Below are positions 10,529 through 51,001 of a stretch of 51,323 bases of DNA, one piece after another. Positions within the stretch are counted from its first letter, which is position 1; the number at the start of each line of letters is the position of its first letter. The translations under genes and the position numbers were made by a program. The notes beneath the pieces were generated by a model. It saw only the letters and a program-made list of their open reading frames with translations, ran no database searches and had not been told where the DNA came from. This DNA is from Planctomycetota bacterium. Lineage in GTDB: Bacteria > Planctomycetota > Phycisphaerae > Sedimentisphaerales > Anaerohalosphaeraceae. The DNA lies in assembly GCA_019456225.1 (NCBI GenBank), contig VRUI01000031.1, forward strand, positions 1 through 51,323. Reading direction: 5' to 3'.

Positions 10529-11116
10529 ATGCTTGAAAGGATGCGAAATTATATTAAGGAGGTCAAATATCCTTCGCTGGGAGATCACCTTATTTTCTGG
10601 CCGATAATAGTTATCGGCGTCGCAGCCGATCTCTGGAGCAAGACGGCTGTCTTCAAGTGGCTAGGTTGGCCGGAGACTCCCAATAACGTATACCACGTCG
10701 TCGAAGGATTCTTTACAATAGTCATGCGTGAAAATACCGGGGCGGCTTTCAGCATAGCGTCAGGACAGCGAATACTTCTGCTTTCGGTGTCAATTATCGC
10801 GTTGTTTGTTGTTATCGGAATTTTTCTGTTTGGCAATATCCGCCATAGACTTATGGAAGTTGCGCTTGCTTTGTTTACTGCCGGTATATTCGGCAATCTT
10901 TACGACAGGGCTTTCAATGATGGCAAGGTAAGGGATTTCCTGGACTTTTACGTCGGCGATCATCACTGGCCGGCTTTTAATATCGCCGACAGTATGCTCT
11001 GTGTCGCCGTCGGTATGCTGGTGATATTTAACATCAAGCATTCCAAAGACACAGAAGCCCTAAACGCAAACGCCGGGCCAGATGAACAAGAACCCAAAGC
11101 GCCAGCGCAGAGATAA
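10529..11116 (+). CDS. lspA: Lipoprotein signal peptidase (signal peptidase II)
   Basis: This inner-membrane aspartyl protease cleaves lipoprotein signal peptides after lipidation. Four membrane segments are visible together with the family motifs: DLWSKTAVFKW (about 31-41), MRENTGAAFSIASGQ (about 67-81), the catalytic aspartate in GNLYDR, and the second in FNIADS. At 195 residues it is longer than usual (about 165). The extra C-terminal 25-30 residues (around TEALNANAGP and KAPAQR) are encoded by copies of a dispersed GC-rich repeat (11051-11080, 11091-11115), so the tail looks acquired and probably plays no catalytic role. Confidence 0.93.
   Translation: MLERMRNYIKEVKYPSLGDHLIFWPIIVIGVAADLWSKTAVFKWLGWPETPNNVYHVVEGFFTIVMRENTGAAFSIASGQRILLLSVSIIALFVVIGIFLFGNIRHRLMEVALALFTAGIFGNLYDRAFNDGKVRDFLDFYVGDHHWPAFNIADSMLCVAVGMLVIFNIKHSKDTEALNANAGPDEQEPKAPAQR
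11051..11080 (+). repeat. Dispersed repeat family C, copy 1 (inside lspA)
   Basis: The core AGCCCTAAACGCAAACG, followed by CCGGGCC, closely matches the intergenic copy at 20557-20584 (AGCCCTAAGCGCAAGCCGGG). It encodes part of the extra C-terminal tail of LspA. Confidence 0.65.
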
Positions 11117-11145
11117 AAAAACAAAAACCCGAAGCGTAAGGGCGT
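11091..11145 (+). repeat. Dispersed repeat family C, copies 2 and 3 (end of lspA and downstream)
   Basis: Copy 2 (11091-11115, core CCCAAAGCGCCAGCGCAGAG) supplies the last codons and stop of lspA. It is nearly identical to 11514-11537 inside the UvrC-like gene. Copy 3 (about 11127-11143, core CCCGAAGCGTAAGGGC) runs into the left arm of the palindrome at 11140. Confidence 0.6.
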
Positions 11146-11318
11146 GTTGCCCAAATACTAAATTCTAATATCTAAATCCTAAGCAAACTCAAAATACGAA
11201 TTACCGAAATTCAAAACCCTATTCTGACGCAGTCAGAAACGTTTTGAGCGTTTGAATTTAGATATTAGTGCTTGTTTAGTATTTAGAATTTAGTGCTTAG
11301 GAATTCGGCAACACGCCC
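11140..11318. repeat. Long imperfect palindromic element between lspA and the UvrC-like gene
   Basis: GGGCGTGTTGCC (11140-11151) is repeated exactly inverted as GGCAACACGCCC (11307-11318). The 155 bases between are AT-rich and built of shared words such as TAAATTCTAA, TAATATCTAAAT and CCTAAGCA on opposite strands. No coding frame is present. It fills the convergent gap and resembles a miniature mobile or repetitive element. A CGCCAGCGCAGG word right after it belongs to repeat family C. Confidence 0.6.
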
Positions 11319-11334
11319 GCCAGCGCAGGAATAA

Positions 11335-12606
11335 TCACGACTCCATTTCGAAACGCTTTCTTATCATCCATGCCAGCTTACCTGCGTCGGGTAATTCTTT
11401 CCCTGAGTTCGACGAACAGTTTATCCATATTCCCGCCGGTTTGCTTCGATAAAGAAATGAACACAAAAGTGCAAGCTGCTCGGAGTATGTTTTGTGATCG
11501 GCGCGGCTGCAGGAGCCCGAAGCGCCAGCGCAGGGATAAGACCCTTCAGTACCACCGACATCCTGCCGCCTTTTTTTCTCTGTTTTGCAATCCGCGCGGC
11601 TGCCCGACAGGGGGGCCGCGGTTAATTTCTTTAACAATGACTTATGGAATTTTTCAATCTTGTCAAGATTGAATGGCGCAAATTCAACGATGCCGGTTTC
11701 GGTGATCAGAAATGCCGACAACGTCTGCGTCTTTTTTCGTTTGCCTTTGGTTTTAACTTTTGCTGACAGGTCTATATGCAGCACCGCAACATCTTTGAGC
11801 CTGCCTGTCCATTTGTATTGGTACCTGGCAATCAGATCGAGTTGTTCGATCTGATTTTTAACGTGGTTTGCCAGTTCAAATTCCAATTCTCCGCAATAAC
11901 GTCCCATCTTTTCATTCAGCTCGGATCTGAACTCATCGACATTGCCCGACGCTGCCGATATCGCGTTTTCGATTTGCCGCTGGTATTGATCCCTGGTGAT
12001 CTTTCCGACGCATGGAGCCGGGCAGTTTTCCATTTGTAAATACGGGCAGCTTGCCGCTTTTACCGGGTTTGTCGCAAGTTCCGGGCGATGGCAAAGGGTA
12101 AAAGCGTTTTCCAGGGCATTGACAAATCCCGTCGCCGACTTGCGGCTCTGGAACGGGCCAAAAACAATTTCATCGTTTGACGGCAAAGGAGAAGATACGA
12201 TAGAAAAGCTCGGCCATTTTGCAGAAGGGTTGATCTTTACGAGGTTCAATTTTGGAAAAGAAATAAGGTCCGCGTAATTGCCCGGCCAGAGAGTTTTTGC
12301 GATGGTGGAATGGTTCATCGCGGCCTTGAAATCATTATAACAGCATAAGTAGAAAATATGCCTTACGATTGAGGTGATCTCAGGGCGTTTAGAAGGCGTT
12401 GGTGTTTCTTCGGTATACAAACGAGCCCTGGCAGTACGGCGGATGTTGGCGGCAATAAGGAGTTGAACGGGGCGATTTTCGGAATCGGCAAAAAGTATCA
12501 CCCCCTTGCACGCAGGCAGAGCAACAAGATGACAAAGTGCCTGATCTCGTTGGAGGTTCGGATCAATATCCAGACCGCCGTCAAATAGATCTTCGTATAT
12601 TACCAT
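11335..12606 (-). CDS. UvrC-like protein lacking the C-terminal nuclease (Cho-like or regulatory)
   Basis: The 423-residue product matches the N-terminal half of excinuclease UvrC: a degenerate GIY-YIG-like block (LPACKGVILFADSENRPVQL), the GPFQSRKSATGFV segment, the cysteine cluster CPYLQMENCPAPCVGKITRD, and a UvrB-binding-like helix pair (GRYCGELEFELANHVKNQIE). The catalytic Tyr and Arg of GIY-YIG are not evident. The C-terminal RNase H-like nuclease and HhH domains of UvrC are missing. Near residues 335-375 it carries an in-frame insertion built from repeat DNA (11488-11603). It may be a planctomycete UvrC paralogue with binding but uncertain cutting activity. Confidence 0.68.
   Translation of the reverse strand: MVIYEDLFDGGLDIDPNLQRDQALCHLVALPACKGVILFADSENRPVQLLIAANIRRTARARLYTEETPTPSKRPEITSIVRHIFYLCCYNDFKAAMNHSTIAKTLWPGNYADLISFPKLNLVKINPSAKWPSFSIVSSPLPSNDEIVFGPFQSRKSATGFVNALENAFTLCHRPELATNPVKAASCPYLQMENCPAPCVGKITRDQYQRQIENAISAASGNVDEFRSELNEKMGRYCGELEFELANHVKNQIEQLDLIARYQYKWTGRLKDVAVLHIDLSAKVKTKGKRKKTQTLSAFLITETGIVEFAPFNLDKIEKFHKSLLKKLTAAPLSGSRADCKTEKKRRQDVGGTEGSYPCAGASGSCSRADHKTYSEQLALLCSFLYRSKPAGIWINCSSNSGKELPDAGKLAWMIRKRFEMES
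11488..11603 (-). repeat. In-frame 93-base duplication carrying repeat family C
   Basis: TGTTTTGTGATCGGCGCGGC (11488-11507, plus TGC) and TGTTTTGCAATCCGCGCGGC (11581-11600, plus TGC) are direct repeats, 20 of 23 bases alike and 93 bases apart, exactly 31 codons. Between them lies a family C copy (11514-11537, core CCCGAAGCGCCAGCGCAGGG). In protein the duplication reads SGSRADCKT and SGSCSRADHKT, so the reading frame is kept. Confidence 0.7.
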
Positions 12607-12642: not shown

Positions 12643-12670
12643 CTCAAACTGGCCAGCCGGACAGTTGGAG
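12643..12670. repeat. Stop-proximal palindrome family B, copy 1
   Basis: CTCAAACTG (12643-12651) pairs with CAGTTGGAG (12662-12670) with one mismatch. It lies directly after the stop codon of the FabZ-like gene (12672). AT-rich ATCAATTATAAAT words, like those of family A, adjoin it on the UvrC-like side. Confidence 0.5.
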
Positions 12671-12671
12671 T

Positions 12672-35696: not shown

Positions 35697-35722
35697 TCAA
35701 ACTGGCCGACCGGCCAGTTTGA
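35697..35722. repeat. Stop-proximal palindrome family B, copy 3
   Basis: CAAACTGGCCG-AC-CGGCCAGTTTG is a perfect 11-base-pair stem (35698-35721), starting 6 bases after the stop codon of the CBM9-like gene. Confidence 0.6.
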
Positions 35723-35727
35723 GTAAG

Positions 35728-37432: not shown

Positions 37433-37464
37433 AACTCAAACTGACTGATTAGCCAGTTTGAGTT
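37433..37464. terminator. Bidirectional terminator ending the exopolysaccharide operon
   Basis: AACTCAAACTG (37433-37443) pairs perfectly with CAGTTTGAGTT (37454-37464), with an A-run on one side and a T-rich run on the other. It separates the small gene from the operon that ends at 37506. It also belongs to the family B palindromes. Confidence 0.75.
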
Positions 37465-49873: not shown

Positions 49874-51001
49874 TTACGGTCCGGGAGGCGGATTTTCGGC
49901 TTTTACTTCTGCTGCTAGCTGCCATATTTTCGGGAGTGTGTAATCGAAAATCTTCTTGTAACTGTCACAGAAAAAAGTTTCCATTTTTAGATCACTATCG
50001 GCTATTCTTCTGTCTTTTGGGCAGCCGCCGCGGCAAATATCGTAGTGTCTGCAAACTATGCATTTATTCGGCAATTCGCGTTTTCGCTTGTTAAATTGGC
50101 GTTTTTTGGGGCTTGAGGCCAGTTTTTCTATTGGGGTTTCCATAATATTTCCGAGGTATGCGTCCTCTTCGACAAAAAAGTCGCAGCAATACACCCCGCC
50201 GTTGTGCTCTATTACTATATAGTCTGCGCATTTTGGCATGAATGTGCACTCGGTATGTCCCTGGCCGAGGCAGTGCGACAGGATACTGTCGAACGATCGG
50301 ACGCTTACTTTGCGGACGCCGTGGGCCTGCCAGCGGTCGAATATTCTGCACATGAAATCGGCGTATTGCGTTGGCGTGATCGAAAAATCGGCGATTTTAC
50401 CGGTGTCAGGGTCGTTTTCGACGCACTGGACGAACTGCAGGAATTTGACTTTTTGGGCCATGAAAAAATCCCATACCTCGTCGGGGTGGGTGACGTTTAT
50501 GTTGTTTAGCAGGACGAGGATGTTGTATTGTACGTTGTGCTGGCGGCATTTGGCGATGGCGGCCATCACCTTGTCGAAGGTGCCTTTGCCGGTGTGGCCG
50601 AGGCGGTAGGTGTCGTGGTAAGTCTTTGGCCCGTCTAGACTTATGCCGACGAGGAAATTGTTTTCGGCTAGGAACTTGCACCAGTCGTCGTCCAGGAGGA
50701 TGGCGTTGGTTTGGAGGGCGTTGGTTATGGGCTGGCCGGAAATCGCGTATTTTCGCTGAAAATCGACGATTTTTTTGTAAAAATCGAGGCCCATCAGGGT
50801 TGGTTCGCCGCCCTGGAAGGCGAAGCTGCTGTGGGGGAGGTTGAGTTTTAGGTAGCTGGAGACAAGTTTTTCGGCGACGGCATCGCTCATGCGGTGGGCG
50901 TTTTTGCCGAAAATGTCCGTTTTTCGTGAATAAAAGCAGTATTTGCAGTCTATATTGCAGTCTGGGCCGGTTGGTTTTATTAACAGCGTAAAAGGACGCA
51001 T
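49874..51001 (-). CDS. Anaerobic sulfatase-maturating radical SAM enzyme (anSME-like, SPASM)
   Basis: The 375-residue radical SAM protein starts LLIKPTGPDCNIDCKYCFYS, giving the C-x3-C-x2-C cluster site, followed by FAFQGGEPTLMG (about 60-71). The C-terminal SPASM cysteines are present (HTECTFMPKCADYIVIEHNG, VYCCDFFVEED, CIVCRHYDICRGGCPKDR). Such enzymes oxidise a Cys or Ser to formylglycine in sulfatases under anaerobic conditions. No sulfatase lies in the window, although Phycisphaerae usually carry many. It has its own promoter region on the right. Confidence 0.88.
   Translation of the reverse strand: MRPFTLLIKPTGPDCNIDCKYCFYSRKTDIFGKNAHRMSDAVAEKLVSSYLKLNLPHSSFAFQGGEPTLMGLDFYKKIVDFQRKYAISGQPITNALQTNAILLDDDWCKFLAENNFLVGISLDGPKTYHDTYRLGHTGKGTFDKVMAAIAKCRQHNVQYNILVLLNNINVTHPDEVWDFFMAQKVKFLQFVQCVENDPDTGKIADFSITPTQYADFMCRIFDRWQAHGVRKVSVRSFDSILSHCLGQGHTECTFMPKCADYIVIEHNGGVYCCDFFVEEDAYLGNIMETPIEKLASSPKKRQFNKRKRELPNKCIVCRHYDICRGGCPKDRRIADSDLKMETFFCDSYKKIFDYTLPKIWQLAAEVKAENPPPGP

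Follow-up and report, generated by a model that had tools for sequence, protein, structure and literature searches.

How does a short repeat, found mostly between genes, come to be translated within one, and does its presence there reveal a repeat adapted to coding sequences? This question is raised by a UvrC-like gene on a 51,323-nt stretch of DNA (hereafter "the window"; contig C75) from the 4.45 Mb, 152-contig assembly of a planctomycete of the Anaerohalosphaeraceae. An earlier note on this DNA had described a direct repeat in the gene enclosing a copy of a dispersed repeat. It had likened the arrangement to the Rickettsia palindromic elements (RPEs), which are dispersed palindromic repeats found in frame, as an extra peptide, in many protein-coding genes.

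The UvrC-Like Host Gene

The host gene was called as an open reading frame (ORF) at positions 11335-12606 of the minus strand and encodes a 423-residue protein. NCBIfam UvrC-type models match this protein with scores under their curated cut-offs, and no Pfam match was found. The AlphaFold2 model has a mean pLDDT of 89.2. Its best Foldseek match is the UvrC GIY-YIG domain 1yd6 (E 7.6e-3, probability 1.00, target TM 0.75), and nothing was returned at E ≤ 0.001. Four cysteines (C172, C187, C195, and C199) are invariant across the 30 aligned UvrC-like sequences, and a Cys cluster of this kind is a feature of UvrC. Model and alignment thus point to a divergent relative of the UvrC family, with a predicted GIY-YIG-type N-terminus and a conserved Cys cluster. 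A search of a collection of genome contigs with the protein found no relative.

The Insert and Its Flanking Direct Repeat

The gene-downstream copy of a 23-nt direct repeat lies at 11488-11510 (encoding SRADHKT) and the gene-upstream copy at 11581-11603 (encoding SRADCKT). The copies are identical at 20 of 23 positions, and their starts are 93 nt, or 31 codons, apart, so that the frame is kept in an open ORF of 423 residues. The motif SGS(C)SRAD-x-KT therefore appears twice, as SGSRADCKT (residues 334-342) and SGSCSRADHKT (residues 363-373). On these points, the earlier description proved accurate; the "93-base duplication" of which it spoke is a duplication of 23 nt with a period of 93 nt.

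The 70-nt insert between the two copies (11511-11580) encodes EKKRRQDVGGTEGSYPCAGASGSC (residues 343-366). It harbors a REP-A copy at 11512-11539 (plus strand, antisense to the UvrC-like gene), the core of which, CCCGAAGCGCCAGCGCAGGGATAA, occupies 11516-11539. After a 9-nt spacer follows a degraded REP-B copy at 11549-11570 (plus strand), recognized by genome search and local alignment, with three mismatches to the family pattern. The insert is hence a head-to-tail REP-A/REP-B pair, and an insert of a single family was ruled out, its second half being REP-B. In a survey run at loose thresholds, same-orientation A-then-B pairs were found with spacers of 4-6 nt at L001, L109, and L135 and of 21 nt at L113, and B precedes A at L012, L025, L029, and L285. 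These pairs at other loci identify the insert as a recurring repeat pair.

The direct repeat abuts the REP pair closely, 1 base before REP-A and 10 bases past the matched part of REP-B. The 23-mer is confined to these two sites in the 4.45 Mb genome (up to three mismatches allowed), which makes it a local duplication and not a dispersed repeat. In dinucleotide shuffles of a 376-nt region, none of 300 reached the score of the direct repeat (14 observed, 11 in the best shuffle). A cross-copy control, pairing the upstream flanks of one REP-A copy with the downstream flanks of another, gave 2 of 348 pairings scoring at least 14; by this control, about one such pair per 87 REP-A copies could arise by chance. 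It was given less weight because the swapped flanks have other dispersed repeats in common. The shuffles and the closeness of the abutment speak against a chance pair, and a chance direct repeat was rejected on the shuffle result and the uniqueness of the 23-mer in the genome.

The extra segment is absent from all 29 orthologues that were aligned with their loci (the search matched at least 11 more genomes, which are not part of this alignment), and an ordinary conserved stretch, the outcome that the earlier note had named as refuting an insertion, was ruled out by this comparison. Between residues 329 and 374, the linker of the window protein counts 44 residues, against 8-11 in 28 orthologues and 25 in L061; L073 has unrelated additional residues immediately before the linker stretch. 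Once the insert and one repeat copy are removed, the window linker reads LTAAPLSGSRADHKTYSEQL, a length near that of the nearest orthologue (L050, AQEPGPSGRNRLGELM). The relatives compared all lie outside the genus and this orthologue is 47-49% identical, so that the empty site is visible at the protein level only. In the AlphaFold2 model, residues 331-370 have a mean pLDDT of 40-55, as compared to 89-97 for the blocks on both sides. The inserted segment is thus predicted mostly as a low-confidence loop, in which the model nevertheless draws a helix at residues 337-347.

Two Repeat Families, Mainly between Genes

REP-A copies have the consensus AAACARAAGCCCGAAGCGCRAGCGCAGGGATAA. The C-variant of the core pattern has 86 matches in the genome and the V-variant 98 (up to two mismatches), and the reversed pattern has none; REP-B has 84 matches, and its reversed pattern again none. 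The repeat is therefore abundant elsewhere in the genome and dispersed, as the earlier note held, except that the enclosed segment belongs to two families and not to one. The other outcome that the note had named as refuting, a core missing from the rest of the genome, is thereby set aside. The stretches around 86 REP-A places contained 92 copies with up to four mismatches and 87 with up to two, so that the sample covers 87 of the 98 places. For REP-B, the sample comprises 76 copies, drawn from part of the 84 places, after removal of repeats of one and the same context and of copies situated closer than 250 nt to the end of a stretch.

Genes were called by a simple codon-score script, which is not a tested gene finder. 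By these calls, 61 of the 92 REP-A copies are intergenic, 9 lie across gene ends, and 22 are within ORFs, 13 of these ORFs being terminated by the stop codon of the element itself. Five of the remaining nine were inspected, three (C5 44560, C83 11238, and C91 17757) were judged from coordinates alone to be start-codon artefacts, and the ninth is the UvrC-like insertion. Of the copies called in ORFs that do not end on the REP-A stop, most have the appearance of start-codon artefacts or are placed at the end of a gene. REP-B copies are distributed likewise (66 intergenic, 5 across gene ends, 5 within ORFs), and four of the five internal ones, being at most 18 codons from the called start, are most likely start-codon artefacts as well. 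Accepted as truly internal are three of 92 REP-A copies and one of 76 REP-B copies. The three REP-A copies are located in the UvrC-like gene, at a menC-menE junction (L121), and, with four mismatches, in the linker of a membrane-protein ORF (L100); the sole REP-B copy is that of the UvrC-like gene. Near REP-A, an ORF of 100 codons or more ends on the same strand in 52 of 87 cases and antisense in 11, and the UvrC-like copy is the only one of 87 crossed antisense by a scored ORF. With such a mostly extragenic placement, the UvrC-like insertion is exceptional for both families.

Both families consist of units of 20-40 nt, in high copy and mainly intergenic, as expected of REPs. REP-B is predicted to form a stem-loop of -16.3 kcal/mol (z -6.5, none of 200 shuffles as good). 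The REP-A consensus fold is weaker (-8.0 kcal/mol, z -1.7, matched or bettered by 12 of 200 shuffles; opposite strand z 0.5), and the window copy folded in context yields z values of 0.06 and 0.38. Inverted halves GCGC/GCGC and CCC/GGG are present in REP-A, with imperfect placement. At L030 (contig C77, about 50745-50950), 57-nt units with one REP-A copy apiece form a tandem array. The window has no Rfam match at the gathering threshold, which rules out a known structured RNA, and phage carriage is not supported, with no exact repeat match among viral contigs.

Around the UvrC-like locus, three REP-A-like copies are gathered inside 450 bp. The second lies at 11093-11116 (plus strand, two mismatches), and its TAA terminates the neighboring lspA gene (10529-11116). 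The third, at 11128-11334 (plus strand), directly adjoins the UvrC-like gene at its 3' end and may be interpreted, from its sequence, as a split REP-A: between CCCGAAGCG (11128-11136) and GCCAGCGCAGGAATAA (11319-11334) lies a segment of about 180 bp, the ends of which are the 12-nt inverted sequences GGGCGTGTTGCC (11140-11151) and GGCAACACGCCC (11307-11318). The same end sequence occurs, without a partner, behind GCG(C/T)AA half-sites at L137, L267, and L287. Another dispersed palindrome-like repeat, TCAAACTGGCC...GGCCAGTTTGAGT, is found at 12644-12671, 35697-35724, and 37436-37463, with six copies in the window at 67% identity or more.

Distribution in Relatives

The REP-A core, with up to two mismatches, has a match in 11 of 59 relatives (36 in G004 and 10 in G034). 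Across the phylum, the relaxed core without mismatches occurs in 9 of 294 sampled genomes, one of which is apparently the window's own, with 109 copies in G121 and 89 in G178. The exact repeat occurs in 20 named records, 12 from one Anaerohalosphaeraceae MAG, 7 from other planctomycete MAGs, and one labelled Omnitrophota. A GTAG tag is carried by 74 of the 89 copies of G178, by 10 in G004, by 3 in G034, and by 2 of 87 in the window's genome; none is tagged in G121 (0 versus 109 untagged matches) or G105. In the window's genome, the tag position is degenerate, mainly AAAG or GAAG, and REP-A looks, by sequence similarity and despite its weak fold, like a member of the GTAG REP kind whose tag would have been lost in this genome.

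For sites in common with G004, 20 of its stretches were set against 424 ORFs located close to the 87 copies of the window's genome, and matches came from ORFs beside two of these copies. In one, the gene is 72% identical and is followed by REP-A in both genomes, though with the orientation reversed; the other match reaches 40% identity. In G004, REP-A also lies in an apparent longer shared repeat unit (L162, L164, L168, L170, and L172; left flanks gcaaggaagaaaac...). In G178, many GTAG-tagged REP-A relatives form opposite-strand pairs about 70-250 nt apart (C2, C4, and C10).

Mobilization by a RAYT was considered as well. REP-A (up to four mismatches) and REP-B (up to five) are absent from the 1.6-2.6 kb around five own, three G004, and one G003 Y1-transposase-like matches, and no RAYT linkage was found at the genes examined. 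Two RAYT-like Y1 transposase genes, L141 (C47) and L143 (C34), lie between flanking repeats peculiar to them, 70-nt direct or 41-nt inverted ones, and their stretches contain neither REP-A nor REP-B.

Origin of the Insertion

The locus very probably records the insertion of a REP dimer into the UvrC-like gene, with a 23-bp target duplication, in frame and tolerated in a linker. The head-to-tail dimer (REP-A, 9-nt spacer, REP-B; a 70-bp insert) would have entered the gene, and 23 bp of target would have been duplicated on insertion. A total of 93 nt and an open frame would have kept the reading frame and lengthened the protein by 31 residues, tolerated ahead of the last conserved segment. As the preferred route, the dimer may have been copied into a staggered break, the fill-in of which would produce the direct repeat, possibly with template switching from REP-A copies about 180-400 bp away, rather than being moved by a cut-and-paste transposase. 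We infer the single event, its neutrality, and the staggered-break filling or template switching.

This duplication is not the habit of the family. In a scan of the flanks of 87 REP-A copies, three outscore the window copy; two of them are units of the same tandem array, and the third, at C38, is a 50-nt pair set apart from the element. The score of the window copy is equalled by a 14-nt flanking pair at C11. No common or constant-length flanking duplication was found among the 87 copies, which rules out a general target-site duplication of REP-A as in a MITE or transposon. Since such duplications are generally absent, the one observed here would reflect an unusual event rather than the way in which REP-A ordinarily spreads. 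The same general absence agrees with a course in two independent steps: the linker would first have undergone tandem duplication or slippage and the REP pair then have entered between the copies, or the reverse, the 23-nt repeat thus being no target-site duplication. The tandem 57-nt units of contig C77, each with REP-A, are a point for it too. The close abutment on both sides is, however, explained more simply by one event, and we regard the two-step course as rather improbable.

Is the repeat instead an RPE-like coding element, adapted to insert and be translated in genes, of which this insertion would be one of many? The UvrC-like insert keeps the reading frame and is read as part of a linker, and the two further internal REP-A copies also lie in linkers, so that the parallel with Rickettsia stands as far as the in-frame insertion of a dispersed repeat goes. 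It is not supported for a spread through coding genes: truly internal copies are as few as counted above for both families, and the ORFs ending near REP-A lie mostly on its strand. An RPE-like adaptation is thus quite improbable. That the inserted residues are now functional in the UvrC-like protein is most improbable, since the segment is mostly of low confidence in the model, the helix drawn there notwithstanding, and is missing from the aligned orthologues, although the frame has stayed open while REP-B decayed. A REP dimer inserted with its target duplication remains our preferred reading.

Stop Codons, C-Terminal Tails, and an Apparent Gene Fusion

Scored ORFs entering REP-A in sense end on its terminal stop in 12 cases and read through in 3 (binomial P 0.0003, the expectation being one frame in three); this stop is TAA, or TAG in one. 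The number of ORFs ending on it depends on the definition: 13 by the gene caller, 14 by the longest ORF of at least 100 codons, and 12 by the coding-score filter. ORFs of at least 100 codons are those of the window lspA and of L014, L028, L030, L099, L102, L109, L110, L117, L120, L128, L133, L135, and L138; the L099 ORF, intergenic by the gene caller, may be no gene. The resulting C-terminal tails are KQKPEAQAQG or variants thereof, that of LspA being EQEPKAPAQR. The LspA C-terminus is variable among relatives, and comparison of the tail is uninformative. If long tails from read-through are selected against, the stop bias would follow with no special role needed.

At L121 (1015-3408), a single 797-residue ORF joins MenC-like and MenE-like parts in frame, and the linker between them, TETQTEARSASAGIK, overlaps REP-A (about 2053-2086 of L121). 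The ORF was computed from one draft assembly, and the MenC and MenE activities are predicted from similarity. No in-frame ATG, GTG, or TTG is present in codons 331-420 of the fusion in the window's genome, which leaves the MenE part without an ordinary start there. Among the 34 genomes searched, menC and menE are separate genes in six relatives, with no comparable match in the rest. Three of these (G004, G005, and G043) have the two in different frames. In the other three (G010, G019, and G013), a stop separates the parts: menC ends on TAA or TGA, and an ATG, presumably the menE start, follows one codon on in the same frame. Judged from these sequences, L121 holds an apparent REP-associated gene fusion.

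Stops and fusion together suggest a tentative and, on balance, unlikely wider role for the REP of this planctomycete lineage as portable protein code: inserted in sense behind genes, it would give a stop and a KQKPEAQAQG tail, and in another frame at a junction it would fuse MenC to MenE through a REP-encoded linker. If true, the repeats would help to shape gene ends and gene fusions, beyond decorating spacers.

Relation to Known Repeats and Significance

RPEs, which PMC3733652 also cites, and the present repeats share a dispersed palindromic sequence read in frame as an additional peptide, and they differ in that the latter are mostly extragenic, form a short REP pair, and belong to a different phylum. 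In REPINs, REP units are arranged as opposite-strand pairs, and RAYTs mobilize such REP doublets. REP units and pairs are found here too, including the opposite-strand pairs of G178. Unlike REPINs, however, most sampled REP-A copies of the window's genome are solitary or follow an ORF in sense, and, in contrast to RAYT-mobilized REPs, neither REP-A nor REP-B borders any of the five own Y1-transposase-like matches.

Close to the present repeats are also the GTAG REPs. According to the available text of one report (BMC Genomics 2013, PMC3733652), these are present in R. baltica, supply a TAG stop to neighboring ORFs, and allow degenerate tags in some families, and tyrosine transposase genes show no obvious correlation with the repeat families. 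The same text documents intragenic REPs in other bacteria, with uvrA and uvrB among the hosts, more than half of these inserts being dimers or groups that encode 20-30 residues (PMC3733652). As far as that text describes them, the likeness extends to short dispersed palindromic repeats lying mainly downstream of genes, to dimers, to occasional in-frame intragenic copies (nucleotide-excision genes included), and to the supply of stops. The present case differs by the tag, degenerate in the window's genome, and by the 23-nt duplication flanking the window copy. The novelty that the earlier note had claimed for planctomycetes is weakened by this precedent (PMC3733652); no intragenic planctomycete REP was seen in searches of an open-access library, supplements and subscription papers being beyond reach.

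The UvrC-like insertion is hence a new case of a known type of event, the intragenic insertion of REPs. It extends this type to an apparent phycisphaeral planctomycete, with a clear flanking duplication. Together with it, the ORFs that end on a REP-A stop and the apparent repeat-borne fusion bear on how short repeats may alter protein ends and join genes.
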